Positions 6,970 through 64,000 of a stretch of 64,000 nucleotides of DNA are shown here, one piece after another. The position numbers and the translations under genes were made by a program. Source of the DNA: Owenia fusiformis (lineage: Eukaryota > Annelida > Polychaeta > Sabellida > Oweniidae); the NCBI GenBank assembly GCA_903813345.2, contig CAIIXF020000012.1:28904684-28968683 (forward strand), read 5' to 3'. The notes under the pieces were generated by a model. It was given only the letters and a program-made list of their open reading frames with translations. It did not search any database and had not been told where the DNA came from. Numbering within the stretch: position 1 is the stretch's first letter; each line of letters starts with the position of its first letter.

Positions 6970-7209
6970 GAGTGATTTCGCAACTCACTTTCAGTAGTAT
7001 GTTTATTATTCCCGGATTACGTATAACTTATGAAGCGTTTGATTACGTCATCATTTATTGCAAAAGAATATCACACATGGACGACATTGGACGCATAGAG
7101 CTGCGCAATAAATGATGACGTTATCAAACGCTTCATAATCATATGTTAAACGTTATACGGGAATAATAAACAAGCTATAAGCGTATACAGTGAATTGCGA
7201 AATCTCTAA
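6970..7209. mobile_element. Foldback MITE, ~240 bp
   Basis: Inverted arms of about 90 bp. The left reads gatttcgcaactcac, then gtttattattcccg, then ttatgaagcgtttgatta, then cgtcatcatttattgc. The reverse complement of the right arm gives the same blocks with small gaps. No open frame is present. Target duplication is unclear. Confidence 0.65.
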
Positions 7210-8756: not shown

Positions 8757-8974
8757 TAACGACCGTTTTGAACTTGGTAATCGAAGTTGGGTTTATGAGT
8801 TTGATTATTCCTTTTTTACGACTTACAGCTGTCAACCTTCTCATCAAATTGCTAGGATTGTACCGTAAGTGCGGGCTGAAGCTAGATTATAAATTCATGA
8901 TAAACCATCCATCAATGTTAATGAGACATTTATTGCCCATTAACCCATGTTATTAAACCCATAGAGGCTAATAA
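8757..8974. repeat. 218-bp duplicated block, copy A
   Basis: Almost identical to 12080-12297, from the acggccgtttcgaac-like start (here acgaccgttttgaac) through gaggctaata. The flanks differ sharply. A short frame of about 60 codons is shared, but it has no motif. High identity at 3.3 kb distance implies a recent duplication or two insertions of one element. Confidence 0.85.
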
Positions 8975-43709: not shown

Positions 43710-46700
43710 GTGAGTATCTATATTGCAACATGTGAGTATTTATATTACCACATGTGAGTATTTATATCACCACATGTGAGTATTTATATAACCACATGTG
43801 ATTATTTATATCACCACATGTGAGTATTTATATAACCACATATGAGTATTTATGTAATCACATGTGAGTATTTATATAATCATGTGTGAGTATTTATATA
43901 ATCACATGTGAGTATTTATATAACCACATGTGAGTATTTATATAACCACATGTGAGTATTTATATAATCACATGTGAGTATTTATATAATCGCATGTGAG
44001 TATTAATATAACCACATGTGAGTATTTATAAATTATATAACCACATGTGAGTATTTATATAATCACATGTGAGTATTTATATAATCACTTGAGTATTGGA
44101 TAATCACATGTTAGTATTTATCAGTGTTCAAACAGCCTGTTTTTAACTTCTCAGGTGGGTGCTGCTCCCACTTGATTAAATGCTGGGGAGATCACTGTGT
44201 ATATATTACACTGCATGAGATTATATTTAATATTTGACAAAGTTAAGTGAAATAAGAAGGTGGCCTCAAATAACTACTTAAGCCTGTTTGAAATAATGAA
44301 ATGTGAACTAGGTCTCTTATTACTAAAAAAGTTGAATGTCAAATTACATATCTTCCCATTGTTCCATAGTGTGATCCCAGCCTCTAATATCCTTTTGAAT
44401 ACACAGACAAAGGTAAAGAAGGGCTCTGATGAATCAGAATGCCATTATTCTAACTCTAACATTTTTTTTATTATGTCACCACCAGAAGTAGTGACTTTTT
44501 GTTATAGTCTCCAACTGTTTTGTGGACGGTGTTCGGCAGTTGGCATTTGGCATCTATAACAATGTCATGCGGACAATGTGTGCGACAAATAGGAGGTGGT
44601 GCCATTTTGTCTTTTATTTTGTATTATGAATCCTATATTTGAAAAAATTCCAGCTATAATGCTAGCACTGAGGAAGCTGGTAGTGGTAAAGAGGAAGAAG
44701 CCAGGAAGTTGTTACATGATGCGTTACCATTGGAGACCCAACTCTCTAGTTTAATTGCTAGGAGGCTACCCTCTAACATCACCCTTGATGCTCTCTTGAA
44801 ACTGAGGTAAGGTTTATTGTCTATAGTGTGGTATTAGAGACCCAACTCTCTAGTTTAATTGCCAGGAGACTGCCCTCTAACATCACCCTTGATGCTCTCT
44901 TAAAACTGAGGTAAGGTTTATTGTCTATAGTGTGGTATTAGAGACCCAACTCTCTAGTTTAATTGCCAGGAGACTGCCCTCTAACATCACCCTTGATGCT
45001 CTCTTGAAACTGAGGTAAGGTTTATTGTCTATAGTGTGGTATTAGAGACCCAACTCTCTAGTTTAATTGCCAGGAGACTACCCTCTAACATCACCCTTGA
45101 TGCTCTCTTAAAACTGAGGTAAGGTTTATTGTCTATAGTGTGATATTAAAGACCCAACTCTCTAGTTTAATTGCTAGGAGACTGCCTTCTAACATCACCC
45201 TTGATGCTCTCTTAAAACTGAGGTAAGGTTAATCGTCTATAATGTGGTATTAGAGACCCAATTATCTAGTTTAATTGCCAGGAGACTGCCTTCTAACATC
45301 ACCCTTGATGCTCTCTTAAAACTGAGGTAAGGTTTATTGTCTATAGTGTGGTATTAGAGACCCAACTCTCTAGTTTAATTGCCAGGAGACTGCCTTCTAA
45401 CATCACCCTTGATGCTCTCTTGAAACTGAGGTAAGGTTTATTGTCTATAGTGTGGTATTAGAGACCCAACTCTCTAGTTTAATTGCCAGGAGACAACCCT
45501 CTAACATCACCCTTGATGCTCTCTTGAAACTGAGGTAAGGTTTATTGTCTATAGTGTGGTATTAGAGACCCAACTCTCTAGTTTAATTGCCAGGAGACTG
45601 CCTTCTAACATCACCCTTGATGCTCTCTTGAAACTGAGGTAAGGTTTATTGTCTATAGTGTGGTATTAGAGACCCAACTCTCTAGTTTAATTGCCAGGAG
45701 ACTACCCTCTAACATCACCCTTGATGCTCTCTTGAAACTGATGTAAGGTTTATTGTCTATAGTGTGGTATTAGAGACCCAACTCTCTAGTTTAATTGCCA
45801 GGAGACTACCCTCTAACATCACCCTTGATGCTCTCTTGAAACTGAGGTAAGGTTTATTGTCTATAGTGTGGTATTAGAGACCCAACTCTCTAGTTTAATT
45901 GCCAGGAGACTACCCTCTAACATCACCCTTGATGCTCTCTTGAAACTAAGGTAAAGTTTATTGTCTATAGTAGGGAGTTTAAGATTAGCGTAAATAGCCC
46001 ATTTACCTATACCTATACGTAGTTTGTTATTACACTAAGCGGTATTTTACCTAAGTTACAGGGTTTACGATACGTAATTACCTATAAATGGCCGAAGATA
46101 GGTAATTCGAAAACGTATGTTTTTATCCAACAAATTATGTCATTTCTAGATCAAATATCATCCATTAAACTTTAAAATAGTAACAACAAACATTTCCCAT
46201 TCGATCTGCATAGAAATTAAGTGGTCGAACACATTCATTGATGCGATAAACGATGCCATGTGATGATGCATGAAATTGTTGAATTTACACATTCTTCGTC
46301 AGTTTTGCTTATTGTAAATGTATGAAATCAGCCATTTTCTTGTGGTTTTAATTGTTTAACTTTACTATTTGGTCACTCTCATTGCTGGATCATGCTAGAA
46401 ATTTAACATTTCGCCTTAAGTCACTGCCCCATTAGCCGGCCCACAAGCAACACCCCCTCCCAACTACAGTAGCTACACCACGAAGTAAATAACAGTTCTT
46501 GGAGGTGACATGTACTGGAATATGCCATATAAGCCATCGCAGGGTTTTCATTCTATAATTAGGATGTTAATTTTATCATTAATTGTAGCATACGGTTTCG
46601 TAGCCTTTTACGTTAATCTTAAACTTATTTTGCAATACGCATTACCTATACGTATCCGTAACAAACATACGGATAGGGATAGGTACACGTATATTTTTAT

Positions 46701-49700
46701 GCTAATCTTAACCTCTCTAATGTGGTATTTAAGACCCAAGGAGTCACAAAAGAAAGAATAATAAATGATGTCACCAGCTAAAAATGAGGTTATGTCACAA
46801 AGAACTTTGTCACAAGCTTGTAATATTCTCTATTATGATTTTATACCTCACCTCTGTGTTTAAGACATTTATTCAAGTTTTAATTTTTTCAGACTAGAGG
46901 TTGAGAGAAGACTAGAGTTGGTCATTCTACAAGATCTTGACTACTCTTGCAAACACAATGTGGATCAGTTACTATGGAAATCTGCCTATTATCAAGTTAT
47001 TGAACTGATGCGCAAACAAGTGGCAGAACATAATGAAGACATGGTGAAGAAACATCTAGTGAAACTTCTAGAGGAGGTCTGTTATTTATATTATTACTAC
47101 CTTAACACATTCATCAAATTGAACATTGTATGCAGTTTTCTTTTCGATTTTTATGTCACCAACAGATATTGTTAAAGTCTTCATTTTTTGTGTATGGTGA
47201 TCAGCAAGTGTTTGGCATCTGTAACAAATGGCGAGATTTTGCATGTGAATGCCTTGTTTATCAACTGGATTAAAATGGTAATTTTATTCATTGCGATGGA
47301 GAAGATATTTTGGTAAAACATTTCCTCATTTTTCCAATTCTCAACTTTAAGCTAATTTATTTTCAACAGGTTGCATTGTGGGCATTTTTTCCATTGGATG
47401 CGTAGTGAGTTTATCCGGATGCAAGGTTTTTTTGAAATGGGTGATTTTCAGTTGGGTGCAAAGCAAGCATGTATATACATGGTGATAGGTGCAGGGTGAT
47501 TTTTAGCTAAGACAGCACCCAATCACTTCCATGCCTCTATCTAATTATGAATTTGTTGTTCTAGGGCTGCTTTTTCTATGAAAGTTTGTTAAGAAAGTTG
47601 GAGAGTTGCTACAAATTTGATCTGAATGTCTTCATCAGTGAACTACAGCGGCATCCTGATAATCTGAGACGAAGTGTTAAATTAGCTATTCTATGGTGAG
47701 TTTAGATACAGTATGAATGATACTGTATGAGCCAGATACAGGTCCATCATAGCCGTACCCAAAAAAAACCAATGAAAATATAACCGTTAGAGAGAGGAAG
47801 AAAAAAGCTTTAAAATGCTTTTTATTTGTAGCTACTACTGTAGCTCAATTTCGAAGGAAGTTACATCAATTTTTGTAGAATTCAAAACAAATCTTAATCT
47901 TTTTGGGCTTATGCCACAATCACACACCCCTGACTGAAAACCGAAATTTTTTTGGCGATTGCACTGAAAGCTGGAAAAGGGGGGTTAGTTTTTAAAAAAG
48001 ATTACGAGGATGTAAAAATTTTACAATTTTGACACCAAATCACTGAAAAGTTCTCAAAAGTTTTACTTCAATTTCTTTGATGAAAAATGCTGTAAGGGAG
48101 GACATCTTTTAATCAAGTCAAAAAGTTCTCTATTGCGAAGTGATCTATGTTACTCTCAGGGTCAGTGAATTGTAGAAAAAACTTATTTTTCTCCAGTTGC
48201 CAACGAGTGATGATTTGCCTTGGTGATCTCGCCAGGTACAAAGAGCAGGTGCACAATGGCGTCAACTATGGTAGAGCCAGGAGTTGGTACCTAAAAGCTC
48301 AGTATATCGCTCCAAAGAATGGACGACCCTATAACCAGCTGGCAATCTTGGCTCTCTACACAGTAAGACAATACAGTAAAATCTGTCTAAGTGAAACACC
48401 TTTGGTACCTCTAAAAGTGTTCCACTTAAAGTCAGTCTGCCTTGGGACTCTGAAAAGTGTTCCACTTCTAGAGGTGTGATTGCACTTATGGTAACTGTAT
48501 ATGAAAATTGAAACAACAGTGCACTCAAAACAATGGTGCAATCAAAACAATAGTGCAATCAATAGTGCAATCAAAACAATAGTGTAATCAAAACCACAAA
48601 GAAAATTTTATGTCACGACCAAGAAGTGATGACATAGTGTGGTAAAGTCTTCCTTTTGTGACTTGCATTAGGAGTTTGACAGTTTGGCAATGAGTGAGTG
48701 TCAATGCTCAATTTCTGTAGCAAATTGCAATAACTTTCCAGATTGTGACATTTTGCCATGTTAAAGGCTTCATTTATTTCTGCGTTTAACTTGAACTCCT
48801 TCACCTTCGATGAAGTTTAACAGTGAAATCTTGCATAATTAAGAATTTCAACTCAGTTTTACTACTCTTTCATATTTGAGACATTCATTTTTCAACTCAT
48901 GAATGGTAACTATTCCAACATTCTGTGTTTCCAGCGCAGGAAACTTGATGCCGTGTACTATTACATGAGAAGTCTGGCAGCCAGCAATCCATTTTTAACA
49001 GCCAGGGAAAGTCTCATGGCGCTTTTTGACGAAGCTAGGAAAAAGGTGATTTATTGTTTTTATTATTTCATTCATAAGTTCAGGTATTATACAATTAGCT
49101 GTGATCCTATCAGCACTAAAATTGAAATTCTCTATCCTAGTCAGAGTGTAGGAATTAATACTAGCCACTGGGCACCAGGGTTTGTTTAGACTTCTTTTTT
49201 GGTTTGTTTAAACTGATGTGAACTGTTGTGTTATAGGCAGAAGTACAGGAGAGGAAAAGGAGAGCAGTCGAGACCCCAACGTTGGAAATTGAACAAGGAG
49301 AGCAGAGTGACAGAATTGAAATCTGGGTCTCACCAGATGGCTCCAGTGTCACAGAGACCGTACAACAGGAAGATGCCCTCTCCAATCTCTCGACCAATGA
49401 ACTCAATAGGAGATTTACGCTCAGTTTTCTTCTTGTTCATGGAAAGCTTTTTACAAAAATAGGGTAGGATAGCTTTAGTAAATGTCACGCCCAAATATAA
49501 ATAGCTCATCTTATTGTCGTAATTCTGTTTTCTCAAAACTGACTAGGATGCAAGAGTAATTCAGAATAGTATGTATGAAGGGAGGGTGTCCACTAGAGAC
49601 AGGTTTTACTGTATTCTTCATTATGTATATTCATTGTACTGTATTCTTCATTATGTATATTCATTGTGTACGATTTATACATTTAGGATGGAGGACTTCG

Positions 49701-52700
49701 ATGAGATGTGCGGGAAGATGTTACAAGAGTTTGAAGCTCTCTTATCGCGTACCCCTCATGAAGTATTGTCCAATCAGAGACTACTACAGCTTATAGCCAT
49801 CAACATGTTTGCCATTGAGAATTCAGCTATAAAAGGTAAAGCATCACATGTCCATTTATTAATGTCCAATATTTCAGATTCACAGATTAGGCAAGGTGTG
49901 TCCTATTCCAGTCAATCAGAACACGCAAACTGCATTCCGTTTCACGTAACTGCGTTCCATTATATAACCAATAACGAACTCAAGGTCACTAGTTAAAGAG
50001 TTGCATGGTGATGACAACTCTACAGATTGAAATTGATACTTTGCCAGCTTGACCCTTGCAAAAAGTTTCATTGGAAATATGTTCATTTAGGGATTTTGTG
50101 TCTTTCAGATGATTTTGTAGAAAATATTTTGCAATGTGTGAAAAGAATTTAAGCCCAAGACTCAATGCGTTGTGTAATGAATGACCATTCATTTCAGGCG
50201 TTGTTTTCTAAACTCGATGCTGTGCATCTCATGTAAATTTTGGAAAGCAACACCTTCAAGAATGGTCATTCCACATTGCACTGAGTCCAGGGCTTAAATC
50301 CTTAATCAATTATGTTTTCTTAAACATGTATAACTGTACCATAAACCATTGTATTATACAATATGTAACTACAGATTATATTTTTTAGATGATCGGGTAT
50401 TGGAAACTGAGTGTAGATCTGTGATTGAAGAACAGGCCACGCAACTAGGTAACATTAACATTATCTCTACTCTATAAATATTAGAGATGTCACGGAACAA
50501 AGAAAAAACGGAACGGTTCGGTTCGGAACATTTTGCTTCGGAACGGAAAAATTTCGGAACGGTTCAGAACAGAGTGACTGCGTGTATAAGTTTAAAATAA
50601 GTTGATCATCTAGGTCTATTTGGTAGCGAAAAGCTCTTTAAAACTCTTCAATGAGAAGGAGTGAAAAGAATGAACCTCTTTTGGTGCAAAATATTGAAAG
50701 AAAAATGCTGTTTTGTGGCGATTTAAGGTCCAAAAGTTGTGAAAGGGTATCCATGACACCTCTAATGAATATAGAGTAGTTCAGCATTTTAACCAGCTTT
50801 TGACTGGTACGTGGAGTGTGCTAGTTTTAAGTTAAATCACCTATGAATCTACAGCAGATAGGTTTTTTTCCTATGGGTTTCAAGGGTATGCCCTCTCATT
50901 ATGATCAAAATCTGTAACTTCAATGCTAATTCTGTCGTAGGTTATATTTGGTAGTTGAGCGTGTCTTGTAATTCCATGGTTTAGTAATAAGTATGTTTTG
51001 TATATTAATATTTACATGGCAAGATTACATGGTTTGAGTAACACAGTAACTTTAATTGCATTAAAAACATTTTGACAAAAAAGCCTCGTAACAAAGGATT
51101 TTTGAGATGTTACACATACACAGGCACAAAATATCTTTGTTTCGAAGCTATTAGTCAAAATGCTTCATAACGAAGCAATTTAACTCTGCTGTGTAACAGA
51201 TACCAATGAAGCATTGAAATCTGAATCTGCAATGGGAATTTTATTTGTAGGTTTAGACATGTTAGGAATGCTTGTTGCGAGGTGCTCCGAACTTCTGAAA
51301 AGTCATTTAGCCAGTCATCATTTTCCCAAGGACCTGGTGTCCCCTGATTTGAGGGAGCTTTTACCAGCAGTGAAGGCATGGTGTGATTGGATGTCGTGTC
51401 ACATGCCTGCCTGGAACCCACCTCCAGTGCAGAGGCCTCCTGGTGTAGGGTAAGTACCTCCTTTATGGAAACCCGGGGTGAAGGGTCAGTACCTCATTTA
51501 CGGAAACCAGGGGTGAAGGGTCACTACCTCTTTTAGGAAAACCAGGGGTGAAGGATTAGTACCTCCTTTACGGAAACTAAGGGTGAAGGGTCAGTACCTC
51601 CTTTAGGAAAACCAGGGGTGAAGGGTCAGTCAGTACCTCCTTTACGGAAACCAGGGGTGAAGGGTCACTACCTCCTTTAGGAAAACCAGGGATGAAGGGT
51701 CAGTACCTCCTTTATGGAAACCAGGGGTGGAGGGTCAGTACCTCCTTTACGGAAACCAGGGGTGAAGAGTCACTACCTCCTTTAGGAAAACCAGGAGTGA
51801 AGGGTCAGTACCTCCTTTACGGAAACTAAGGGTGAAGGGTCAGTACCTCCTTTAGGAAAACCAGGGGTGAAGGGTCAGTCAGAACCTCCTTTACGGAAAC
51901 CAGGGGTGAAGGGTCACTACCTCCTTTAGGAAAACCAGGGATGAAGGGTCAGTACCTCCTTTATGGAAACCAGGGGTGAAGGGTCACTACCTCGTTTAGG
52001 GAAACCAGGGGTGAAGGTCAGTATCTCCTTTAGGAAAACCAGGGGTGAAGGGTCAGTACCTCCTTTACGGAGACCAGGGGTGAAGGGTCACTACTATTTT
52101 TTAAATACCATCTATTCTACTTCATCCATCTTGCCTGAATATTTATGTGGTATAGAATGTATGTAACAAAATTCAGAATTTTTATTTTAGGTTCTCCCAA
52201 ATAATTATCCTTGTCTATTCTCAAAAATAAACTTGACTAATATGCTTCAGGCCAGAGATGGAAATTTGGGAAACACTTTCAAAGTCCATCAACCTATTTA
52301 TTATAAGATTATTGTGTTTATTTCAGTCCTGAGATAGATGTTTGGGAAAAACTTGCCAATATCATCAACCTATTTAAAAGATTAAATTGTTTATTTCAGT
52401 CCTGAGATAGATGTTTGGGAAACACTAGCCAATTTCATCAATCTATTTAAACGATTAAATTGTTTATTTCAGTCCTGAGATAGATGTTTGTGAAACACTT
52501 GCCAATTTCATCAACCTATTTAAAAGATTAAATTGTTTATTTCAGTCCTGAGATAGATGTTTGTGAAACACTTGCCAATTTCATCAATCTATTTAAAAGA
52601 TTAAATTGTTTATTTCAGTCCTGAGATAGATGTTTGGGAAACACTTGCCAATTTCATCAACCTGTTGAGGAGTGTTGACATTTCTGTTATTGACATGTTT

Positions 52701-55700
52701 GAAGAACATAATCTACCATCTGGTAAGTAAGAATGAATACATGTATGTTGGTAGCTCTTGATTTAGGAAAAATAGATAGAGGTTATTTAATGGGAGGGAT
52801 GGAATATGAATTTTATTTTGAGGGAAAATATGATATTGACCAAGGAAAATATCATATTGGCTGAGGGTGACAGCTTGAGTGTTTGAGTGATATTTATTTA
52901 TGGAATAAATAAAGGTTATTTACTGGGAGGGATTGAATATGGGTTTTATTCTGAGGGACAATATGATATTACCTGAGGGCCAGAGGTCACAGACTAGACT
53001 ATTACAGATTTTCACTTGATTCATTTTGAGACCATACTTCTTCAGTACATTGAAGCATTTCATTTTCAGGTGGTATTCCAATACTGTTAAGTGAGGAGGC
53101 TGGCCTTGCAGGGTTTGTACCATTACTGGCACATATGCCCCGTCAACTCTTCACACTCCCCGATGCTGATAATGTAAGTGGTGTACAACAGTAACGCCCT
53201 CTATAGATAATTACCATTAAGACTAAAGACTTGAGAAACAGCTAAACATGTCATGCAAAAACATGTTCACAATTGTGAAACTGTACATCATGGATTTTAA
53301 AGAAAACCCCTAGCTAAAATTGCTTGGATTTCTATAAATTTTTTCAATATCATGGAGCTTTTCACCATTCTGAGCACTGTTCAAGTGATTTTGGACCAAA
53401 GTTGTCAAAAGTGAACCCTCTCCTATATTTTTGGAAAAGTGAACCCCATTGACGTCTTTCGACGTTCAACGTTCAGGATTTGGTGGTCGGCATCTGTAAC
53501 AAGTGGCAGATGACATGGTGACATTTTGCATATTTATGTGTTCTATTTTTATAGGTTCTGGCATGTGATTGTGCTAGGATTGCACTGCTGAGATACTTTG
53601 GTTAATACTTGAATGGCATTGAGCCCCCAATGTTTGGCTAAATGCAATTTTCTATTGTTATAGGTCCTGGCATGCGATTGTGCTAGGATTGCACTACTGA
53701 GGTACTTTGGTGAATACTTGAATGGCATTGCGCCACCAATGTTTGGCTAAATTGCAATTTTCTATTGTTATAGGTTCTGGCATGTGATTGTGCTAGAATT
53801 GCGCTGCTGAGGTATTTTGGTGAATACTTGGATGGCATTGAGCCCCCAATGTTTGGCTAAATGCAATTTTCTATTGTTATAGGTTCTGGCGTGCGATTGT
53901 GCTAGAATTGCGCTGCTTAGGTACTTTGGTGAATACTTGAATGGCATTGAGCCCCCAATGTTTGGCTAAATGCAATTTTCTATTGTTATAGGTCCTGGCA
54001 TGCGATTGTGCTAGGATTGCACTACTGAGGTACTTTGGTGAATACTTGAATGGCATTGCGCCACCAATGTTTGGCTAAATTGCAATTTTCTATTGTTATA
54101 GGTCCTGGCGTGCGATTTTGCTAGGATTGCACTGCTGCGGTACTTTGGTGAATACTTGAATGGCATTGCGCCACCAATGTTTGGCTAAATTGCAATTTTC
54201 TATTGTTATAGGTCCTGGCATGTGATTGTGCTAGGATTGCGCTGCTGAGGTACTTTGGTGAATACTTGAATGGCATTGAGCCCCCGATGTTTGGATATAA
54301 TGTTGAGAAGAAATTGTACTATTCAGTTGCTCCAAAACTGAAGGATGAAAGAGTTAGTAAAGAATCTTCTCAGGCCAAACTTGACCAGGTATGTAATTTG
54401 TAAATGGTATTTGTTGTTAATTTGACATGTTTTTTAGGAATTGTTTTAGGCCTTTTGACATGTTGACAGCTATTTAAGAAGACATTTTTCATGTTAATGC
54501 CTAATGTTTGATACTTGTTAAAATATTCACTGTGTACTGTACCTTGCTATTTATTCCTCCTTTATGAATAATTCCTTTATGAAAATTATTGTGTAATGTT
54601 TTTTCTATATATGTATTGCTTTTAGAGTTTGGAAGATAATGATATGGAGGATCTAGTCACACAAGATGAGAGTCATGGAGAGGGAGACATTGGAGAGTTA
54701 AGGAAACAGAAAGAACTGTTGGAAAAGAAGGTTAAACAGCAACAAGAGCATCAACTTAATATTAATGTAAGAACATTTCTTATTTAACACGAATTGTTAT
54801 CCCACTTGATGGAGTTTGTAGGGATATAGAGAAGCTGTCTGTCTATTCATCCATTTGTACGATCCGCGGATTATGAGGGGGAATCCCCAAGATTTATCCA
54901 ATTTGCATTGGAATTCAGATAAAATTTATCCAAAAAGTAATTTACCTCAAGAGGTGGATTGAGATTTATCCTGAGATAAATCCCAGGATCGCGCGAATTC
55001 ACTGATTTTTGGATTAATTCTTGGATTAATCCCACAATGCATCATTAACATGACGAAATTTATCCGGATCGGATCGCGGATCGTACGAATTCACAGCCCC
55101 GGGTGATAGCTCAAAATGGATGGATTGGTTCAAGTTTCATAGGCTAGTGACTTTTGGATGTAGGACCATGCACAAGAATGAAGTTTCAATGATGCTATAT
55201 TGTTATAGTCTGCAACTTTTTTGTGGATGCGGTAGGTGTTTAGGTGTGTAGTTGATGTTTGTAACAAATTGGCAGTTGGTGTTTGGTGTTCAGCGTTCGA
55301 TGTCTGTAACAAATTGCAGTTGGAGGAATTTGCATACTAATGCCCTGTCTTAATCTAGTTGGTGTTCCATATGTATTCTGATATTGACCTCTTCATTAAC
55401 CGGAGTGACCAGATTTCTTGCCACCACCGAAATGACCTTGAAACCCAGAGTGCCGAAAAATTGCTCTTATATGAAAAATTTTCATCCATTTAACACAAAA
55501 ATCTTTTTAAAAAGTGTAATTTTCTGGTTTCAACCAATTTTAAAAACTCGGATTCAAGAGCTTAAATAATGTTGTCTTTTATCTTGTCAGTTCAGGATGG
55601 GAACTTACATAAGAAAACAAGATTTAGTGTATATAATAAGAACATATTTACAATTTATTATGTACAATTTATACATACAGTACAACATCATTAAATACTT

Positions 55701-58700
55701 GAGCATTTACAACAACATCATTAAATACAATAAATATAAGTAAATATTTACAATTATATATACAATAGATTGACAGAGTTGCTGTGTTAGTGATGGTCTC
55801 TAGCATCGTTCCTTGAAAGTACTACATGGTACCACCCCAAGGTTGATGCAAGGCATACAATTCTCTGCCACCCCCGTGAGAACTAGGTCAGCCATCGGAT
55901 GGTCGATAAATTGGTTGTATTTAGAATAATGAAAAACCAGAGTCATCCTTTATATTCTGCTGGGAACCTTTGTCTTGGTTGTCCAACTTCTCTGATTTTT
56001 TTGTCAGGGCAGCTGAAACAGCATATTTGGCCTCTCTTGCCTTAAAAGAAAATTCAAGTTGTTTGAAATCTTTTTCTACATTGCAAATTTTTTTATGTTT
56101 GTCATTTTGTTTATGTTTGTCATTTTTTATGTTTGTCATTTCATAGATCTAATGTTATCCTTTTTGCTTTAGCATTATTCAGCAAGTATATGTCCTGTTT
56201 ACCATTCATTGATATCGGGTTTTCTCTGCACTTTTAAGGGTCACTAGCAAGACTAGCAAGTGGTACAAATATGACAGAGATCGGATATATATTATGTGAT
56301 CATTGACATTTGAGAAATTCAAAGATGCACATCAAAAATCCAATATCAGAGTTACCCAATGAGAACTAAGTTGCATCGTATCTCATTACACTAGTAATCA
56401 GGATATGGTGTGAATGTGACATTTCTGGTGTTACTTGGTATAAAAAATAATTTTACTACAAACTAACACCAAGTCACACCACAAACTTGGTGTGACTTGG
56501 AGTGAAAGGATTAAGAGATTAAACCCCTGCTGTCTAACACTGAGTCACACCATACCACTGGTGTGAGATGGTATGAAAATTGAATTTAATCCCTTTGATC
56601 TCTGATATCCTGATTACTAGTGTATGTTCTTGGGACATGGTCTATTGCAATTCTGTAGTATTCAAGCTAATACTTACTCTCTTTTCCATTCTATGTAGTG
56701 CTCGTTCAAGTAGGGAACGCTTGTCTTTCTCCTTTTGAGATTGTGAAAACTTTGGGTCATATACTGGAGACATCCTTAGGATAGTTTCCATTGTGCAATC
56801 AGCCTTTGTGTAAAAGCCATTTCTGCCAAATTTGGAAAAGTCTATCTCTGGCCATTCATATACATGTATGGCATTCAGTTCAATTACCATTGTGACCTCT
56901 TCTACTTTCTCCTCATTTTCAACATCATTGAATGGAACAATGCGATTCGTTCGCCTCCATAGCTGTCTGTTTTCTTTGGATTTCCAAATAGCGGTCTTGC
57001 TTATGGCACTTCTAATCCTATGACATCTATTTGGTTGTTTTTCCATCTTCACTTATTTGTGTAACTTTGTCTTTGCAGATCAACTATCAAGAATTTCTTT
57101 TTCAGTTTTGTCTTGCAATTTTTTGTTTGTGTTTACCATAGAAACGATATTTCTGTCGCCGAGTTACTCTTACTGTGTTTTGTGACATCACATGTCTTGT
57201 TGCTATAAAACATAAAGCCTATAGTAACGGCTGCATTATTTACTGTGTGACATCACAATCACATTTCTTAGAATCCTAGTTGTAAATTAATTTAAAACAT
57301 TTATGACATCACAGTAGAATAAGGTTATTTAGTTGTGATGTCATAACCGAGAAATTTCATTCTGGGGAGTCATTTTTGTGTGCCATGGTAACATTTGAAG
57401 TTTAGGGTTTGTTTTATTTTATGTGTTGTGTATCCCTTCAAGTTTAAATTTTTTCACAGCAAATGCATTTTCCCCATATAAAAAAATTGGAATTTGATAC
57501 TGATGCTGTCATCTTACTGTTAATTCAATTTTGAGTCATTATCCAACTGAACATAGTTCGAGAGGGATACCCAGATAGAATCATTCATCTATCTGGGTGA
57601 TAAGTTAAATACCGGTTTATGAATTGGGTTCAAATTTTATAGCCTGATGCATTTTGGGGATTGGATATCAGTCAGCTTGAGAAGGAATTTTCAATATGGC
57701 CACTCAATTCTAAATGGCCACCAGTTTTTTTTAAAAATTTTTAATCTATAACTCAAAGACCAGTGAAGAGATATGCTTATACAACCTGGTGGGAAGAGAA
57801 ACTGTTTAAGAAGTAAATTTTTAAGATGGTAACTGAATTCAGAATGGCTGCCATTTTTCATAAAAATGTAATATGTACATGTACCAGCTAACAGATTTGA
57901 CTCAAATTTTATATGCTGATGCCCTAGGGACATAGGACTCTGCTCAAGAAGGAATTTTCAAGCTGGTCTGTTTGTCCAAAATGGCTGCCATTTTTCATGA
58001 GAAGGATCTTTTTTGTGAATGGTGTTCTGTGGTTGCCATTTGGTGTTGCTGGCATCTGTAACAAATGGCAGCTGGTGATATTTTGCATGTTAATGCTTTG
58101 TAATTTTTTTTGAAACCTTTATTTTTATTTCTTCATTAATAGAGTACATTTATATCTTTGTATCTGGTGATAGAACACACATTTATGAGACGCAATAAAA
58201 CAATGTTATTTTGATTCTTTGAATTTCTTGAATCCCTCTGCAAATCCAGCCAAGACTGTCTTGCTTATATCATCAAAATGCGGCTGTAGTTTGGCCTTTG
58301 TGCGTTCCATCCAAGCTGCCAGCTTAGGTCTGTTCTTCACCATGTCATAACCAGTCGCTCCGACCTGATTGAGCTCTGTGATTCAATGTATATCAGCAAT
58401 TGAGATGTCAATTCCTGCAATATAGGGGGCATCCTTCAACCAGATTGTCTCCAGTTTGTTGAGCAGTTTCTCAAATCCATCCTGTATTTCCTTAACTTGG
58501 TCCTCGGTGATAGTCATACTGAAGAATGCCGGCCCAGCAAACTGTTAAACCAAAAATAGAGATTACAATAAAATAGAGTATATAATAAAAGTACACATTC
58601 AAATGAATCTGATGAAGTAATATTCTTAGTACAGTTTAAATGTTTCAGTTTAGTTTTTTACTGTACATTTATTTTCAATATTGCATTTGGATCATTGTTA

Positions 58701-61700
58701 CTATCGTCTAAGCTGATATTTCAATGGAAATTAAATCTTGAACAATTTTAAGTGTTAATTTCCTTATTTTATATCGATCCATAATTCTAATATGATACTT
58801 GATGTCACAAGAACTAGAACACCTGATTTACTGGTCTATGATCAAGTATGTATGACCTCTAAATTCATGAATGGAGTTTTTTTTTTTGGTTTGTTTATCA
58901 TATTTGAATCATATCATCAGACCTTGATTCTTTGATTTATGGATTTTTTTTCATATTTTAATTTCTTTATTTCCAATTAACTCAATTACATTATGTTACA
59001 AAGATTTTCACAGTAGACACATGCTTATGTGTATATACTGAGTTTACAGTTGAAAATGATTGAATCTTAAAGTAACTTATACTTATAAGAAAGAAAATAT
59101 GAGCAATGTTTTGGAGCAGGTGCAATTGGGGTAACAGACTGATACTAGATGATTTATGGGCTTTATTCCTTAGCAAAGGTCTATAATCGAATACGTATGA
59201 CCACTAGATTTCGTATTAATGCAAATAGTTGTTTTGGTTTGTTTATCATTTTGAATCATAAACAAAGAACTCGATTCTATGATTGATTCTATGGATTTAC
59301 GGGCTTTATTTGTTTTTTTTGTTTTCCTTAACAATGATCAACTACTGTAGATTGGGTTAATTTGGCGCTACTTAATTTGGCGATTTTGCCATTTTTGGCA
59401 TATTGGCGGCTATTTAATTTGGCGGATATGCAAAAAATTTAGCATGTTTGGCTATGTTCATTTTTCTTTTGAGGACCACTGGCGATATTCACCATGTTTG
59501 TACATTTTTGTGAGATCATCCTTTACATTTTGCACCTCGATCGATGCTGCTACTATATCGCGCTTTTCCTTTCTAGTCTTTCCCTGAGTATTAATGAGTG
59601 ACTGACCAGTTCTGAGCCAATTTATGAGACATTTTTTTCATATTTATGGAAAAACTAAACTGGAAGTGACCTAAATACACTGGACGAAATACCCTAGATA
59701 ATTTCCGGGGATTCATTCTGTATTTTGGCGAAGATTTATATTGGCGAATTTTTCAATTTCGCCAAATTCGCCAAATTAAAGCGGGCGCCAAATTAACCCA
59801 ATCTACAGTATTTGGGTAGTATGCAACTTACACTCCTGACAAAGTACCCTGCTGAATGTTTCCTCGTGTCTGTTCCATGTGTGAGGCTAGGTACGTGTTC
59901 ACCATGATTCTTGCCCTCCCACTTCTGGGGTACCAGTGTACTTGGGTAGTATGCAACTTACACTCCTGACAAAGTACCCTGCTGAATGTTTCCTCGTGTC
60001 TGTTCCATGTGTGAGGCTAGGTACGTGTTCACCATGATTCTTGCTCTCCCACTTTTGGGGTACCAGTGTTCGGGAACACCATCCATCTCAGCCAGGTATT
60101 GAAGGGCGGCAGAGCTAGAGGATAATAAAGGATGGATGATTGGTTAGAATGTACCAGTGTTCGGGAACACCATCCATCTCAGCCAGGTATTGAAGGGCGG
60201 CAGAGCTAGAAGATAATAAAGGATGGATGATTGGTTAGAATGTACCAGTGTTCGGGAACACCATCCATCTCAGCCAGATACTGAAGGGCGGCAGAGCTAG
60301 ATAATAATAAAGGATGGATGATTGGTTAGAATGTACCAGTAGAAGAGAATAAGAGTGTAAAATGTTGGCAAAAATGTCAACTTCAAGAAAATCTTTTTTG
60401 TGGATTGTGTTTCATGGTTGGTGTTCAGCGTTTGGTGGTTGGTGTCAGAATTTCCAGGCATACAATACGTCTCTTATAATCCAGTAATTGAGGGAGCTGT
60501 GAAATACGCTATGGTATTTTTGATCACATGGTACTGAATCAGCCAATCAAATCACACGATTTCTAGCAATGATATAATAAATTAAAATATTACCTCTCCC
60601 ATATGCATCCATCACTGTCCACTTCAAGAGTTGGTACCCATTTAAATGGGTTCACATTTGCGACATATTCCTCTTTTTGGCAACTTCCTGAAAACACATT
60701 TTTTATCCTTATATATTATTCATTTAAAGAGTAAATTTTTGATATATTTGGGCATCAGAATTAAAACATTTTTGGATAACTAATTATAGATAAATGAATT
60801 TACATTTATTTTAATAATATTTATTTAGCAAACTATAGTCCACCCATATAGCTCAGCGGTAGAGCGTGCACTAAATATGCGTAGGTACCAGATTCGATCT
60901 ACAGTTTAGGGACTTTGTTGTGTAACATACTTAAGGGTGTTTGACTGAGTGGTCCAATCTCTTAAAAGGTTCTGGTGTGTACTTGTATGCCTAGAACACA
61001 GGACTCCTTCAAGGAGGGGTTCTGTGACTAGTCTTTCAGGATTATTAATGCTTAAATTACAACTTTTCATATATGGGATAGTTACCCAACAGGTATTGCT
61101 CACCTTCATTTGTGGTAAACAAAATAAAAAAAGTGTTCAAGAATCTCAAGGGAGTGTTCCTGTCCAGAACTAAAATATGAAAACAAGTCAAAGTCTATCA
61201 TACCTAGATTTCATAGTAGAGGGAATTCTTATACCATGTACAAATAAAATATCAAACACCTATAATGCTACATAATTAACTTCTACTGTTTCTTGCTCAT
61301 AAAACAAAATTTTCTGAAATATTCAATTGATTTTCGCATAATATATGAATGTATTTTTCCATTTAATAGAACTGTATTGCACTTTTGCCTTTCAATTGTT
61401 TTTTGCTCAAAATTATCATGAAAATTACACAATTACATTCATTATAGTTTAAGATATCCTGAAACATAAAGTATGACATGTCATAAATAATTTATTATCC
61501 CTAGACCCTTTCCCATAATTTGTGGGTCCATTTCAAATTGTCCCTTAATAGTAAAAAGTGAAACATGCAGATGATATCTTCCCATTTTTAGACCCCCCAC
61601 TTAGCAAATGCTGGCTACAGGCCTGTATCTTCCCATTTTTATGAAAAAATTGTATATTCAAAACTCAGAGAATGGTAGGAGAGGTATTGAGACAAAGTCA

Positions 61701-63791
61701 TAGGCGATATTATTTACTTTCATCATAAGCGCCAGTGCTCTACAAGGCTGGGAAAGGTAGTCTCCGTGGAGTTTGATAGGAGCCATGTTGCTAGCCGAAC
61801 TGAGTCTTCTCTTATAGTCTGAGTACATCTGTTAGTGAGTGGTAAGCTTTAACGTGCCAGGCCCTCTGAATCCTCTGTTTTGTATAAGATGCAGAAAATC
61901 CTATGTTTGCCCAAAATATGTTGCTTAAATAACTACGGCAAACAGTTTGAGCTGGACTGAGTGCATTATTTAAATAGTATCAGGGAAAATGTGTGTATTA
62001 TATTTAAAGTTTTCACATGGTATGACTAGGCCAATGTAGATCAATCATGTGTTTGTTGTTCTTTTATTTTAAATTTCAAATCAGTTATTCAGATATTCAC
62101 AATCATTTTCATCTTCATTCTTTCATCTGCATCCTTTTAATGTAGTAAATACTGCAGATTCAGATAAAGTATGGTTGCCCTACATCTAACATTTTACTGT
62201 TTGAGTAAATAGATCAAGTATACATAACTGTATGCATATGCAAGTACTTAAGTACTATAGTTTTAATAGTATAAAACTTTTTTTCGACATCTGAAAAATG
62301 CTGTCATAACATTAATGATTTAAAATATACATGTAAATGTATTTTTATTAATTTTAATAGAAAATACCCCAAGTAAAGAAAAAAAGTGCATGGTGTTATA
62401 TCTTTTTACTTATTACTTAACAACAGAGGTACAATGTATGTCTATTGACCAAATGGAGAAACTCCAAAACATTTTGTAAATATGGTCATATATGGTTAGA
62501 AAGGATAGAATAGAACAACTCACAAGAGTGTGAGTGTGACTTTGAACCATAAATTGATAAATTGATGAATATGAGAAATCTAATTGAATTAAATTAAATG
62601 TGTGTAATGTTCATTGCGTCTGTAACAAATGGCAGTTGGCTACATTTTGCAATGTTAATGCCTTGCTTTAAAATTTAATCTTCTGAAAATAGAAATACCA
62701 GTTCACAGTTTGTTTTTTGGGGGGGAGGGGGGGGGGAGTTAGAATCTATTTGCTGATGCATTATGTACATAGGACTCTGTTTTCGAAGGAATTTCCTAGA
62801 CAGCTGCTAAATTCCAAATAGCCACCATTGTTCTTGACAAAAGTTTTTTGATAACTCAAATACTAGTTGTCAGATTATGGTTTGGATTCCATGTATTAAT
62901 TCCTATGAGACATAGGACTCTTATCAAGAAGGTTTTTTTAAGATGGGAGTTCATACCTCCATTGGAATATTTTGTGTTCTAGGCAGTTCTAGAAAGCAGT
63001 AGAGACCACGGAATCTAGATCACTGTACATCCAGTCTTCTTAGTATAATGTTCTATCTCATTGAAATGTTTTTCAGGCAATTCTAGAAAGCAGCAGAGAC
63101 CATAGAATCCAGGTCATTGTATGTCCAGTTTTCCTTGTATAATGTTCTATCCCATTGAAATGTTTTTCAGGCAATTCTAGAAAGCAGTAGAGACCATAGA
63201 ATCCAGGTCATTGTATGTCCAGTTTTCCTTGTATAATGTTCTATCTCATTGAAATGTTTTTCAGGCAATTCTAGAAAGCAGTAGAGACCATAGAATCCAA
63301 GTCACTGTACATCCAGTCTTCTTAGTATAATGTTCTATCCCATTGAAATGTTTTTCAGGCAATTCTAGAAAGCAGTAGAGACCATAGAATCCAGATCACT
63401 GTACATCCAGTCTTTATAGTATAATGTTCTATCTCATTGAAATGTTTTTCAGGCAATTCTAGAAAGCAGTAGAGACCATAGAATCCAGATCACTGTACAT
63501 CCAGTCTTTATAGTATAATGTTCTATCTCATTGAAATGTTTTTCAGGCAATTCTAGAAAGCAGCAGAGACCACAGAATCCAAATCACTATTCGTCAAATC
63601 TTCTTAATATAATGTTTTATCCCATTGAAATGTTTTTCAGGCAATTCTAGAAAGCAGTAGAGACCATAGAATCCAGATCACTATTCGTCCAGTCTTCCTC
63701 GTGCCAGACACTAACTGTTTCATTGACCATCTTGCCACCATTACAGCAATACTGAACTCAAAGAAGTATAAGCTGATTCTACCTCTAGTAG
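39443..63791 (+). CDS. SMG6: SMG6/EST1A, NMD endonuclease (3' partial at window edge)
   Basis: Eighteen exons: 39443-39536, 40306-40721, 41161-41209, 42164-43709, 44654-44806, 46893-47076, 47565-47695, 48197-48362, 48935-49045, 49237-49463, 49687-49835, 50389-50448, 51251-51449, 52619-52722, 53070-53173, 54212-54388, 54626-54766, 63641-63791. All have GT-AG borders and every junction keeps phase (4,162 nt, 1,387 codons so far). Human SMG6 has 1,419 residues; this protein would be somewhat longer, since most of the PIN domain lies outside. SMG6 cuts mRNA near premature stop codons after recruitment by UPF1 and the exon-junction complex. Matches to the human protein include two EJC-binding motifs, ARSWYLKAQYIAPKNGRPYN, RRKLDAVYYYMRSLAASNP, AWNPPP and the catalytic FLVPDTN. 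The gene has unusual tandem arrays at many exon edges and two antisense genes in intron 17. Confidence 0.97.
39845..40234. mobile_element. Foldback MITE in SMG6 intron 1
   Basis: Terminal inverted repeats of about 120 bp. The left starts agtccatttcactgcttcag, then ttcgtcagtagaacggcaaa, then ttgggagaccattgtgcaat. The right arm is the reverse complement, ending gaagcagtgaaatggact. Arms are nearly identical, so it is young. No transposase. Confidence 0.8.
41030..41115. mobile_element. Decayed hAT-like MITE fragment before SMG6 exon 3
   Basis: Words aagaaattgggtccaacttt, tggggccctaaatttctt and a C-run followed by cttgtgattttc recall the 18460-18787 family in order, with strong divergence. It ends about 45 bp before the exon 3 acceptor. 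Confidence 0.4.
41256..41466. mobile_element. MITE, 'GGCCCGTAGCCAGG' family, in SMG6 intron 3
   Basis: Begins aggaccgtagccaggggggg and ends cctggctacgggcct. Short gac/gacag words flank both ends. The interior holds tgagcactttttaagtgatt and aaaattgtcaaaagtgaacc, shared with the partial copies at 41930-42075 and 53340-53450. Confidence 0.75.
42660..43120 (+). repeat. Coding 36-bp repeat in SMG6 exon 4 (12-residue RS-like repeat)
   Basis: About twelve units of KYSRGRDSEGDS with substitutions (RGKNSERD, RRNDSDRD, RERDYEGD). The frame is intact in all units. Alternating Arg/Lys with Ser and Asp/Glu resembles RS/RD repeats of splicing and EJC-associated proteins. Human SMG6 has charged disordered sequence here but no such repeat that I recall. 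Confidence 0.9.
43710..44110 (+). repeat. 22-bp satellite derived from the exon 4 donor
   Basis: About 18 units of GTGAGTATTTATATAACCACAT start exactly at the exon 4 donor (TATTACCATAG|GTGAGTAT). The unit contains tattaccacatgtgagtat, which differs from the exon-intron junction by only a few bases. The satellite therefore appears to have grown from the splice junction and repeats a donor-like GTGAGT every 22 bp. In frame, retention reads CAT AGG TGA, an immediate stop. Confidence 0.85.
44470..44600. repeat. Dispersed repeat, 'GTCACC...TTCGGC' family, before exon 5
   Basis: Reads attatgtcaccaccagaagt, then gttatagtctccaact, then gacggtgttcggc and gaggtggtgccattttgtc. It ends about 55 bp before the exon 5 acceptor. 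Confidence 0.6.
44654..51449 (+). CDS. SMG6: SMG6 exons 5-13: 14-3-3-like/TPR domain
   Basis: Exon 5 starts the helical domain (LLHDALPLETQLSSLIARR). Exon 6 has NVDQLLWKSAYYQVIE against NVDQILWKNAFYQVIE in human. Exons 7-9 contain the TPR-like core (CCQRVMICLGDLARYKEQ, NYGRARSWYLKAQYIAPKNG, RRKLDAVYYYMRSLAASNP). Exon 10 ends RRFTLSFLLVHGKLFTKIG. Exons 11-13 continue the helical hairpins (LQLIAINMFAIENS; LPAVKAWCDWMSCHMPAWNP). In the human protein this domain binds phosphorylated UPF1. Length and order agree with the family. Confidence 0.95.
44807..45970 (+). repeat. 104-bp exon-5-derived array, 11 copies
   Basis: Units start at 44807, 44911, 45015, 45119, 45223, 45327, 45431, 45535, 45639, 45743 and 45847, with a twelfth start at 45951. 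Each unit holds a GTAAGG donor, ttattgtctatag, tgtggtatt, then the last 73 nt of exon 5. Counting from the TATAG acceptor-like site to the next donor gives 84 nt, phase 2-2, in frame with exon 5 (VVLETQLSSLIARRLPSNIT and onward). The gap between cassettes is 20 nt, GT to AG. Some copies lost a site (TATAA near 45240; CTGATGTAAGG near 45740), but none has a stop that I can see. Confidence 0.92.
45971..46719. mobile_element. ~750-bp transposon inserted into the exon-5 array
   Basis: The left end TAGGGAGTTTAAGATTAGCG and the reverse complement of the right end, TAGAGAGGTTAAGATTAGCA, match well. Both arms continue with CCTATAC/CGTA-rich blocks. It splits a 104-bp unit: gtctatag lies to its left and tgtggtatttaagaccc to its right. 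The array therefore existed before the insertion. The interior is non-coding. Confidence 0.75.
47147..47275. repeat. Dispersed repeat, 'CATCTGTAACAAATGGC' family, intron 6
   Basis: tttttatgtcaccaacagat, then ttaaagtcttcatttttt, then gtttggcatctgtaacaaat, then gcatgtgaatgccttgttt. Confidence 0.6.
47750..47970. mobile_element. Partial MITE related to 661-952, intron 7
   Basis: Shares aaaatgctttttatttg, tagctcaatt, gaaggaagtt, ttatgccacaatc, cccctgactgaaaa and aatttttttggcgat with the element at 661-952. The long C-runs and terminal repeats are missing, so this is an older copy. Confidence 0.65.
48363..48480. repeat. Repeat fragment in intron 8
   Basis: acagtaaaatctgtctaagt, then gaaacacctttggtacctct, with an inverted partner aagtgttccact, then tctagaggtgt. 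A related piece (gtgtccactagagacaggtt, then ttactgta) lies at 49585-49612. Probably a DNA-transposon relic; class unknown. Confidence 0.4.
48607..48775. repeat. Dispersed repeat, 'GTCACC' family, intron 8
   Basis: ttttatgtcacgaccaagaa, then gtgatgacat, then gattgtgacattttgccatg, then ttaaaggcttcattta. A diverged member. Confidence 0.5.
50449..51250. other. Intron 12 with a GGAACGG-rich patch
   Basis: The patch at 50480-50575 repeats cggaacggttcggttcggaa-type words after agagatgtcac, which recalls one end of a transposon, but I could not find the other end. The rest of the intron is unremarkable. Confidence 0.35.
51450..52095 (+). repeat. 35-bp minisatellite starting at the exon 13 donor
   Basis: About 18 units of gtcagtacctcctttacgga plus aaccaggggtgaagg begin at the exon 13 donor itself (GTAGG|GTAAGTACCTCC). 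The units resemble the first 30 bases of the intron. Groups of units (tacgg, tagga and tatgg variants) repeat in the same order, showing higher-order duplication. Retention from exon 13 reads GTA GGG TAA, a stop. Confidence 0.85.
52254..52618 (+). repeat. 73-bp exon-14 acceptor array
   Basis: Copies start at 52327, 52400, 52473 and 52546, with an older diverged copy at about 52254; the true exon begins at 52619. Each copy has tttatttcag, then the first part of exon 14 (tcctgagatagatgtttggg, then acacttgccaatttcatcaa). The exon-derived frame is open in each, to a TGA just inside the next copy. Confidence 0.92.
52619..54766 (+). CDS. SMG6: SMG6 exons 14-17: inter-domain region
   Basis: Exon 14 (GPEIDVWETLANFINLLRSV) matches human VDVWSTLADFCNIL. 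Exon 15 ends FTLPDADN after the LxGFVPLL motif (AGFVPLLAHMP). Exon 16 reads VLACDCARIALLRYFGEYL, against IAADCKRVTVLKYFLEAL in human. Exon 17 is acidic and then coiled coil (GELRKQKELLEKKVKQQQEH), like the human DIRELRAKKLALARKIAEQQ segment. Exons 14 and 16 are each preceded by arrays of copies of their own 5' ends; I chose the last copy because only it continues into conserved coding sequence and a donor. Confidence 0.94.
53340..53545. repeat. Two adjacent repeat relics in intron 15
   Basis: 53340-53450 is a partial 'GTAGCCAGG' MITE (ttcaagtgattttggaccaa, then gttgtcaaaagtgaaccc). 53450-53545 is a piece of the dispersed family (cggcatctgtaacaagtggc, then gtgacattttgcatattta). The exon-16 array begins within 10 bp of the second. 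Confidence 0.55.
53555..54211 (+). repeat. ~110-bp exon-16 acceptor array
   Basis: Copies of the exon 16 5' end start at 53555, 53664, 53774, 53883, 53992 and 54102; the true exon starts at 54212. Spacing is 109-110 bp. Each has ctattgttatag| plus 28 in-frame codons (VLACDCARIALLRYFGEYLN, then GI(E/A)PPMFG) ending at GGCTAA. The first copy reads RYFG with TAA directly after (ggttaatac). Only the last continues as GGATATAATG and has a donor. Confidence 0.93.
54857..55086. mobile_element. Small MITE in intron 17
   Basis: TIR GTACGATCCGCG at the left and CGCGGATCGTAC at the right. The interior holds repeated and inverted tttatccaa, ggattaat and gagataaatccc words, so it would fold on itself. 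No open frame. Confidence 0.65.
55180..55360. repeat. Dispersed repeat, 'CTGTAACAAATTGGCAG' family
   Basis: Contains ttgttatagtctgcaacttt, tttgtaacaaattggcagtt, ggtgttcagcgttcgatgtc and gcatactaatgccctgtc. The tail occurs twice, so this member has an internal duplication. Confidence 0.55.
55921..57046 (-). CDS. Two-exon antisense gene for a 162-residue protein
   Basis: Exon 1 is 57046-56678 (ATG at 57046; 123 codons; donor AAGAGA|GTAAGT). Exon 2 is 56040-55921 (acceptor ttttcttttaag; 39 codons and stop). Phase is 0 across the junction, giving RMEKR|AREAKYAVSAALTKK. The protein starts MEKQPNRCHRIRSAIS and has the block VTMVIELNAIHVYEWPEIDF followed by SKFGRNGFYTKADCTMETIL. The C-terminus is basic/acidic and probably helical. 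No signal peptide or membrane segment. A poly(A) signal (AATAAA, complement at 55654-55659) follows. The conserved-looking core suggests a real gene; I cannot name the family. It lies wholly inside SMG6 intron 17. Confidence 0.75.
57540..58140. repeat. Composite dispersed repeat (longer member of the GTAACAAATGGCAG family)
   Basis: Two to three internal units of gactcaaattttatatgctg, then gggacataggactctgctca, then agaaggaattttcaag, then aaaatggctgccatttttca are followed by gtggttgccatttggtgttg, gcatctgtaacaaatggcag and gatattttgcatgttaatg. The same order of blocks, shifted, occurs at 62600-62950. The short copies elsewhere are probably one end of this larger element. Confidence 0.6.
59345..59808. 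mobile_element. Tc1/mariner-type MITE, 464 bp, TA target site
   Basis: Perfect terminal inverted repeats CTGTAGATTGGGTTAATTTG plus GCG at the left, mirrored at the right (cgccaaattaacccaatcta, cag), flanked by TA on both sides (59343-59344 and 59809-59810). Interior inverted words ttaatttggcg/cgccaaatt repeat several times. Non-coding. It lies in an intron of the GST copy, directly beside the duplicated part of GST exon 3. Confidence 0.85.
59821..59961 (-). repeat. Donor-side duplicate of GST exon 3 (~130 bp)
   Basis: atgcaacttacactcctgac through tacccagtgt-type sequence at 59821-59940 repeats at 59951-60070 with few differences. It is the 3' half of GST exon 3 plus its donor, so a second donor lies downstream of the real one. 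Confidence 0.85.
60115..60350 (-). repeat. Acceptor-side duplicates of GST exon 3 (~91 bp units)
   Basis: Two further copies (60151-60241 and 60242-60340) of gtaccagtgttcgggaacac, then catccatctcagccag, then gcggcagagctag, then ataataaaggatggatgatt. Each carries the 5' half of exon 3 and its 3' splice site on the - strand. The exon is thus flanked by partial copies on both sides. Confidence 0.85.
60843..60912 (+). ncRNA. tRNA-like sequence, probably the head of a SINE
   Basis: A-box-like tagctcagcggtagagcg and B-box-like agattcgatct are at tRNA spacing (about 35 bp), as in an RNA polymerase III promoter. The anticodon stem (TGCAC/GCGTA) and T stem pair poorly and no acceptor stem closes, so it is not a functional tRNA. 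A tRNA-derived SINE head or decayed tRNA copy fits. Confidence 0.5.
62600..62950. repeat. Composite dispersed repeat, second long member
   Basis: Starts gcgtctgtaacaaatggcag, then tacattttgcaatgttaatg, followed by a G-run (62717-62740) and two units of gatgcattatgtacatagga/cctatgagacataggactct. Same family as 57540-58140. It ends about 35 bp before the first exon-18 copy. Confidence 0.6.
62983..63640 (+). repeat. 94-bp exon-18 (PIN) acceptor array, 7 copies
   Basis: Copies start at 62983, 63077, 63171, 63265, 63359, 63453 and 63547; the true exon starts at 63641, all exactly 94 bp apart. Each unit is the first 63 nt of the PIN exon plus atgttctatc, cattgaaatgtttttcag. From 63077 onward all keep the frame (AILESSRDHRIQ, then 9 codons) and then hit TAA exactly where the PIN exon would read CCAGAC of VPDTN. 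The first copy stops earlier (ATC TAG). Confidence 0.95.
63641..63791 (+). CDS. SMG6: SMG6 exon 18: start of the PIN nuclease domain
   Basis: The exon encodes AILESSRDHRIQITIRPVF, LVPDTNCFIDHLATIT and ILNSKKYKLILPLVG. The Asp in VPDTN is the first catalytic metal-binding aspartate of the SMG6 PIN domain, so this homologue keeps that residue (SMG5-type PIN domains lack the full set). The other acidic residues fall in later exons outside the window. The exon ends in phase 1 at GTAAGA (GT 63792). Seven partial copies of it lie upstream. Confidence 0.96.
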
Positions 63792-63808
63792 GTAAGACTG
63801 CCTTTTGA

Positions 63809-64000
63809 CATTATTTGATAGTAACAATCATGGGAAATACATCATTTGATAGTAACAATCATGGGAAATACATTATTTGATAGTAACAATCATGGGAAAT
63901 ACATTATTTGATAGTAACAATCATGGGAAATACATTATTTGATAGTACAAATCATGGGAAATACATTATTTGATAGTAACGATCATGGGAAATACATTAT
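63809..64000 (+). repeat. 31-bp minisatellite after the PIN exon donor
   Basis: Six units of cattatttgatagtaacaat plus catgggaaata start 17 bp after the exon 18 donor and continue past the window edge. Units are nearly identical, so the array is young. Confidence 0.9.

Follow-up and report, generated by a model that had tools for sequence, protein, structure and literature searches.

Why should tandem repeats within a single gene fall so often on the edges of its exons? We address this question in SMG6 of the annelid Owenia fusiformis (Polychaeta; Sabellida; Oweniidae), within a window of 64,000 nucleotides from assembly GCA_903813345.2 (contig CAIIXF020000012.1, positions 28,904,684 to 28,968,683 of the forward strand); positions below are counted from the first letter of this window. 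A sequence-only reading of the window had described seven arrays at or beside SMG6 exon boundaries, proposed that junctions are hit beyond chance, and stated that no such system was known to it. The arrays are, very probably, "mirage" minisatellites: a near-neutral by-product of minisatellite turnover, in which the copy closest to the exon would be the one used in splicing.

All seven arrays were recovered with Tandem Repeats Finder (TRF), with units of 22, 104, 35, 73, 110, 94, and 31 bp; these differing units bear out the view that they are independent expansions. The arrays lie on the plus strand, and exons keep the numbering of the earlier reading. Six arrays contain an exon edge, 3 on the donor side and 3 on the acceptor side. 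At exon 4 (42164 to 43709), the 22-bp array (43698 to 44121) crosses the donor, whose GT lies at 43710 in ATAG/GTGAGTAT (the slash marks the edge); 13 more ACAT/ or GCAT/GTGAGTAT sites follow downstream. At exon 5 (44654 to 44806), 12 copies of a 104-bp unit (44729 to 45971) cross the donor, and 10 of the 12 donors are the identical TGAG/GTAAGG, the true site being the first. The exon 13 donor (exon 51251 to 51449) lies in a 35-bp array (51442 to 52094) with copy donors GTCAGT and GTCACT, weaker than the true site. On the acceptor side, a 73-bp array (52246 to 52663) crosses the start of exon 14 (52619 to 52722), where the true exon start is the last copy; 7 copies of a 110-bp unit (53541 to 54302) cross that of exon 16 (54212 to 54388), with similarly scoring acceptors in all 7; and 8 copies of a 94-bp unit (62981 to 63699) cross that of exon 18 (63641 to 63791), the start of the PIN domain, with TTTTTCAG/GCAATT in 7 of the 8. 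The seventh, 31-bp array (63808 to 64000) lies, as had been described, just inside the intron after exon 18: it begins 16 bp past the donor, does not include the edge, and extends beyond the window.

Exon edges were placed independently of the earlier reading, by homology and splice-site scoring. Joined translations of 14 exons (44.6 to 63.8 kb) match human SMG6/EST1A across its TPR region (PDB 4um2, E 1.7e-147) and at the beginning of the PIN domain (PDB 2dok, E 1.1e-8). Exon 4 lies outside this match: its start comes from exon prediction only, and its end is supported by an open frame (42043 to 43713) and a strong donor. A codon table trained on the long N-terminal frames of SMG6 was seemingly skewed by the make-up of those frames and was set aside for a table built from kinesin, myosin, and SMG6 exons. 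As a separate observation, a dispersed repeat, whose core reads GGCATCTGTAACAAATGGCAG, has five plus-strand copies in the window, at 9771, 47214, 53489, 58051, and 62615 (at most 3 mismatches; none in 100 shuffles), and one of them lies directly upstream of the exon 16 array.

Within the arrays, the true edge is consistently the exon-proximal copy, that is, the first copy at donors and the last at acceptors. The homology match passes the exon 5 to 18 junctions without any insertion of array length, which indicates by sequence comparison that the exon-proximal site would give the normal protein; exon 4 is not covered by this comparison. Counting the true site, splice sites are retained in 10 of 12 copies at exon 5, 7 of 7 at exon 16, 7 of 8 at exon 18, and 5 of 6 at exon 14, and a strong site is kept by many intronic copies in 5 of the 6 edge-spanning SMG6 arrays, exon 13 being the one that differs. 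All 18 decoys tested for reading frame (6 at exon 4, 3 each at exons 5 and 13, 2 each at exons 14, 16, and 18) introduce a stop codon, and the acceptor decoys of exons 14, 16, and 18 bring stops in all three frames.

Tandem arrays are prone to errors in assembly, and the whole pattern might be an artefact of that kind. This is hardly credible, given that the copies are not identical to each other (their mean identities, taken copy by copy, span 0.65 to 0.97), that the contigs are chromosome-sized, and that several independent loci carry such arrays. Concerted evolution of the mirage type would leave the copies at cluster ends least homogenised, and the arrays vary in this respect. The first copy is the most diverged in the exon 14 (0.645) and exon 18 (0.815) arrays; the end copies of the exon 16 array are slightly lower than the rest (0.908 and 0.903, in a range of 0.903 to 0.930); and the lowest identity in the exon 5 array, 0.923, belongs to an internal copy.

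Structures of this kind have a precedent in amphioxus, contrary to the statement that none was known. In two reports (PMC3087553; PMC3902484), "mirages" are tandem duplications of exon–intron boundaries in Adh3, the globins BflGb6 and BflGb9, TnC, and PGBD5, and these are the same thing as the arrays considered here. They report that splicing is undisturbed and that array length is unstable. The likeness extends to repeats that span a boundary on either side, to unit lengths between 10 and about 160 bp, and to splice signals in many copies. A unit that contains the exon–intron boundary is found in six SMG6 arrays, in two arrays of a GST-theta-like gene, and at six loci outside the window (L038, L043, L078, L079, L081, and L102), all described below; at SMG6 exons 5 to 18, the exon-proximal copy is by sequence the real edge and the others are intronic. 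The reported mirages share a cephalochordate host, which is not part of the mechanism and does not apply here. Three matches above the cut-off to the annelid-specific haemoglobin-linker family PF16915 (best E 5e-7) cluster on C6, in keeping with an annelid; mitochondrial COX1 gave no match in this genome. Judged on these features, the annelid arrays evidently work like mirages, and it is the lineage that differs. The present case also differs from those reports in having several arrays in one gene, in an estimated rate per edge (6/154), and in copy number, which reaches 12 to 19 here and is 6 and 3 for BflGb6 in amphioxus. The literature searched, mostly as titles and the beginnings of abstracts, contained no recognised mirage in annelids; what is new, as far as these searches show, is the host lineage, how densely the arrays sit in one gene, and the rate per exon edge.

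Other described systems are more distant. In human segmental duplications, variable internal tandem repeats that can lie at an exon–intron boundary have been linked to novel introns (PMC2812944). That case differs in that it concerns recent paralogs, with units of about 30 bp in about 4 copies that are often retained in an alternative transcript, and the passages on it describe no arrays of decoy splice sites. Tandem genomic duplication as a route to intron gain (the Rogers model, cited in PMC3087553; potato RdRp, PMC4974935) is similar in that the duplication carries AG and GT signals. There, duplication makes a new intron, whereas here the arrays sit in existing introns, and no new intron was seen. 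Earthworm metallothionein genes likewise have minisatellites in annelid introns, which the passages on them do not place on exon edges (PMC12783039).

Mirage-type structure recurs in unrelated genes of the Owenia fusiformis genome. Among 77 kinesin and myosin exons, edge-spanning arrays lie across the acceptors of L038, L078, L081, and L102 and the donors of L043 and L079, and at L063 a 61-bp array crosses the acceptor of a neighbouring myosin exon. In an MDH gene (L011; Pfam Ldh_1_N, E 7.3e-38), a 55-bp array crosses a donor, and the copies of this array carry weaker donors. A kinesin gene on C2 has 18 copies of an exon part spaced 159 bp apart (rows of the profile search); where its two ends were read, three copies end in a stop, the last continues as an open exon, and acceptors recur. 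The donor-side array at L079 (453 to 783 in gene orientation; 57-bp unit) keeps an open reading frame across all six donors examined, and it could lengthen the protein if its decoys were used. Two further candidates were set aside. At L008 (2226 to 3215), about 5 copies of a 201-bp unit apparently hold a whole VWC-domain exon each, which makes exon duplication likelier than a mirage; the array at L013, in what looks by eye like a nucleoside transporter, had no Pfam match and was not counted.

The window itself holds a second such gene. Antisense within SMG6 intron 17 (58206 to 60340, minus strand) lies a GST-theta-like gene, matched over two exons (PDB 1ljr, E 1.5e-9), and one of its exons carries arrays on both edges. 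TRF and splice-site inspection place two copies of a 130-bp unit across the donor (59808 to 60069, minus strand; GAGT/GTAAGTTG in both copies) and three copies of a 91-bp unit across the acceptor (60060 to 60340, minus strand; CTAG/CTCTGC in all three). On the plus strand, these two arrays appear as plain repeats of SMG6 intron 17, and they were absent from the earlier account. With them, 8 of the 9 arrays of TRF score at least 200 between 43.7 and 64 kb, in SMG6 and the GST-theta-like gene, include an exon edge. The original observation is sound and even understated. The GST-theta-like copy may be a pseudogene, since a later exon contains an in-frame stop. Weaker arrays between 43.7 and 64 kb do not include an edge: one at 48511 to 48594 (score 105), one at 49607 to 49667 (score 122) that stops 19 bp short of the exon 11 acceptor, and some rows scoring below 100.

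How might such arrays arise and persist? We propose that a short tandem duplication would straddle an exon–intron junction by chance and would then expand and be homogenised as other minisatellites are. The remaining copies would become intronic decoy exon edges, most with a predicted usable splice site. Under exon definition, the spliceosome would pair the proximal site across the exon, and nonsense-mediated decay would remove mis-spliced products. Duplications that straddle an edge would thus be tolerated because the proximal site is used and mistakes carry stops, leaving edge arrays nearly neutral; arrays within coding exons would persist mainly if in frame. The stronger arrays inside long open frames, at 22915 to 24187 (39 bp), 40527 to 40577 (18 bp), and 42681 to 43109 (36 bp), all have units that are multiples of three. 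Of these, the 36-bp array alone, within exon 4, can be assigned to SMG6; the other two lie in open frames unconfirmed as genes.

SMG6 is itself a factor of nonsense-mediated decay. This role, the strength of many decoys, and the stops that every tested decoy brings would suit a selected function, in which decoy arrays tune splicing, for example by yielding decay-sensitive SMG6 transcripts as feedback. We regard such a function as very improbable: kinesin, myosin, MDH, and GST-like genes carry the same structures, unit sizes and sides are haphazard, and nothing in this analysis shows conservation.

Whether edges are favoured at all is a question of counting. In SMG6, six arrays span an edge where 0.98 are expected (9 arrays, 29 edges; P 6e-5), a value that overstates the case, as the stretch had been selected beforehand as striking. 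A fairer sample comes from exons of kinesin and myosin genes, found through Pfam matches and chosen before their sequence was seen. The kinesin rows were taken in a first batch at every third rank up to 58, and later batches were hand-picked from unused rows. Of 80 loci, L035, L042, and L072 were dropped (flanks trimmed or match cut), leaving 77 usable exons with 154 edges. Edges were picked by script from splice tables, a few with poor scores. Some edges are unsure (L028 and L049 have no acceptor call; the matches of L033 and L034 run over an intron), L031 and L034 overlap by 270 bp, and the L063 array, on the edge of a neighbouring exon, was scored as non-spanning. Around these exons there are 16 arrays of TRF score at least 150, and 6 of them span an edge against 1.7 to 2.8 expected (P 0.003 to 0.03). 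The expectation is 2.5 to 2.8 in a null with collapsed flanks and 1.7 to 2.3 in one with uncollapsed flanks and a visibility limit. Spanning arrays thus occupy 6 of 154 edges, an excess of about 2- to 3.5-fold. Ten of the 16 lie across an edge or within 40 bp of one, against 3.4 to 4.8 expected (P 0.0003 to 0.005), with distance limits that were picked post hoc. An apparent deficit of units divisible by 3 among the edge arrays was discarded as post hoc as well; the 57-bp unit of L079 and the 159-bp kinesin unit are divisible, and most others are not.

Other sequence gives a different picture. After collapsing, 233 kb were scanned: 17 stretches of 10 kb, placed at round coordinates across six contigs, four stretches adjoining the window, and the window's own first 43 kb. 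Together they hold 87 predicted exons (a noisy set) and 33 arrays. Exact edge spanning is not enriched in this set (3 of 33 arrays against 2.0 expected; P 0.31, and 0.34 on repeat), and two of the three spanning arrays (L008 and L016) are doubtful as mirages. Seven arrays lie within 40 bp of an edge against 3.05 expected (P 0.025), a count that includes the array at 42681, actually inside coding exon 4; when this false case is excluded, 6 against 2.9 is not significant (P 0.055). A stricter exon threshold gives 1 spanning array against 0.86 (P 0.60) and 4 within 40 bp against 1.37 (P 0.043). In the 17 stretches alone, neither spanning (3 of 22 arrays against 1.31; P 0.14) nor nearness within 40 bp (4 against 1.90; P 0.11) reaches significance. 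Edges look favoured among the 77 exons and not, for exact spanning, in the 233 kb. These stretches also show how common such repeats are: arrays of TRF score at least 150 occupy 16.5 of 169.5 kb. As to mechanism, frequent birth and turnover of minisatellites in the Owenia fusiformis genome is the best supported.

These results allow a reading in which minisatellites are ubiquitous, edges are not favoured, and SMG6 is a lucky draw. It is possible, if doubtful. The 233 kb, with no enrichment of exact spanning and no significant nearness, the large share of sequence in arrays, and the selection of SMG6 as striking all speak for it; the 77 exons, picked with their sequence unseen, exceed expectation both in spanning and in nearness. 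That excess, at and beside edges and on both donor and acceptor sides, would suit instead a mutational process tied to exon edges, such as transcription-linked breaks, R-loops, or exon chromatin, that starts tandem duplications. Base composition of the flanks does not account for the excess, since the guanine–cytosine (GC) content of introns within 80 bp of edges is no higher than further out (0.312 against 0.334). However, the units themselves are richer in GC than the genome (0.39 against 0.35), so composition may play some part, the effect is small in fold and in counts, the distance limits were post hoc, and the 233 kb do not agree. We consider an edge-tied process somewhat unlikely. Taken together, conserved genes support an edge bias that is modest in size and unproved genome-wide. 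The counts suggest, and do not prove, that exon edges modestly favour the birth or the retention of arrays; a real excess would call for another cause, whether mutational or selective.

Several points weigh against interpreting the arrays as near-neutral mirages. Pure tolerance predicts no excess at edges over deeper intron, yet some is seen among the 77 exons. The evidence for splicing at the proximal site is homology. The copy donors of exon 13 and of the MDH gene are weaker than the true site, and not all arrays are therefore strong decoys. The L079 extension is open and in frame, and at L078 no stop was met, which leaves no array stop for decay to act on. Finally, a weak row with a 14-bp unit at 40424 (score 52) lies inside an open frame, and its unit is not a multiple of three.

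Should edge mirages prove common in an animal beyond the lancelets, minisatellite turnover would produce them generally as a by-product, and they would offer a natural experiment on which of a dozen copies, 22 to 159 bp apart, the spliceosome selects. They would also be a source of longer introns that can be measured, and possibly a source of new ones. A bolder reading makes exon edges hotspots of tandem duplication in this lineage, with a few per cent of junctions carrying decoy arrays that exon definition and nonsense-mediated decay keep under control and that serve as raw material for new introns; we think it unlikely. There is also a practical lesson for gene annotators: our exon predictor called array copies as exons, and others may do the same.

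Tandem exon copies were also counted by eye in the rows of the profile searches, a procedure too insensitive to give a rate. Kinesin gave one array, that of 18 copies, among 144 rows; myosin, with 92 rows, gave a single irregular cluster of 12; and SNF gave no tandem exon copies among 107 rows. The myosin-head region G000:C9:37986009-37994334 has twelve matches to one part of the head at irregular spacing and is perhaps a cluster of alternative exons. At L012, arrays of a 145-bp unit that look tRNA-like by eye (1 to 1208, 4600 to 8145, and 8308 to 9853) flank an open frame of 1182 amino acids with reverse transcriptase and endonuclease domains.

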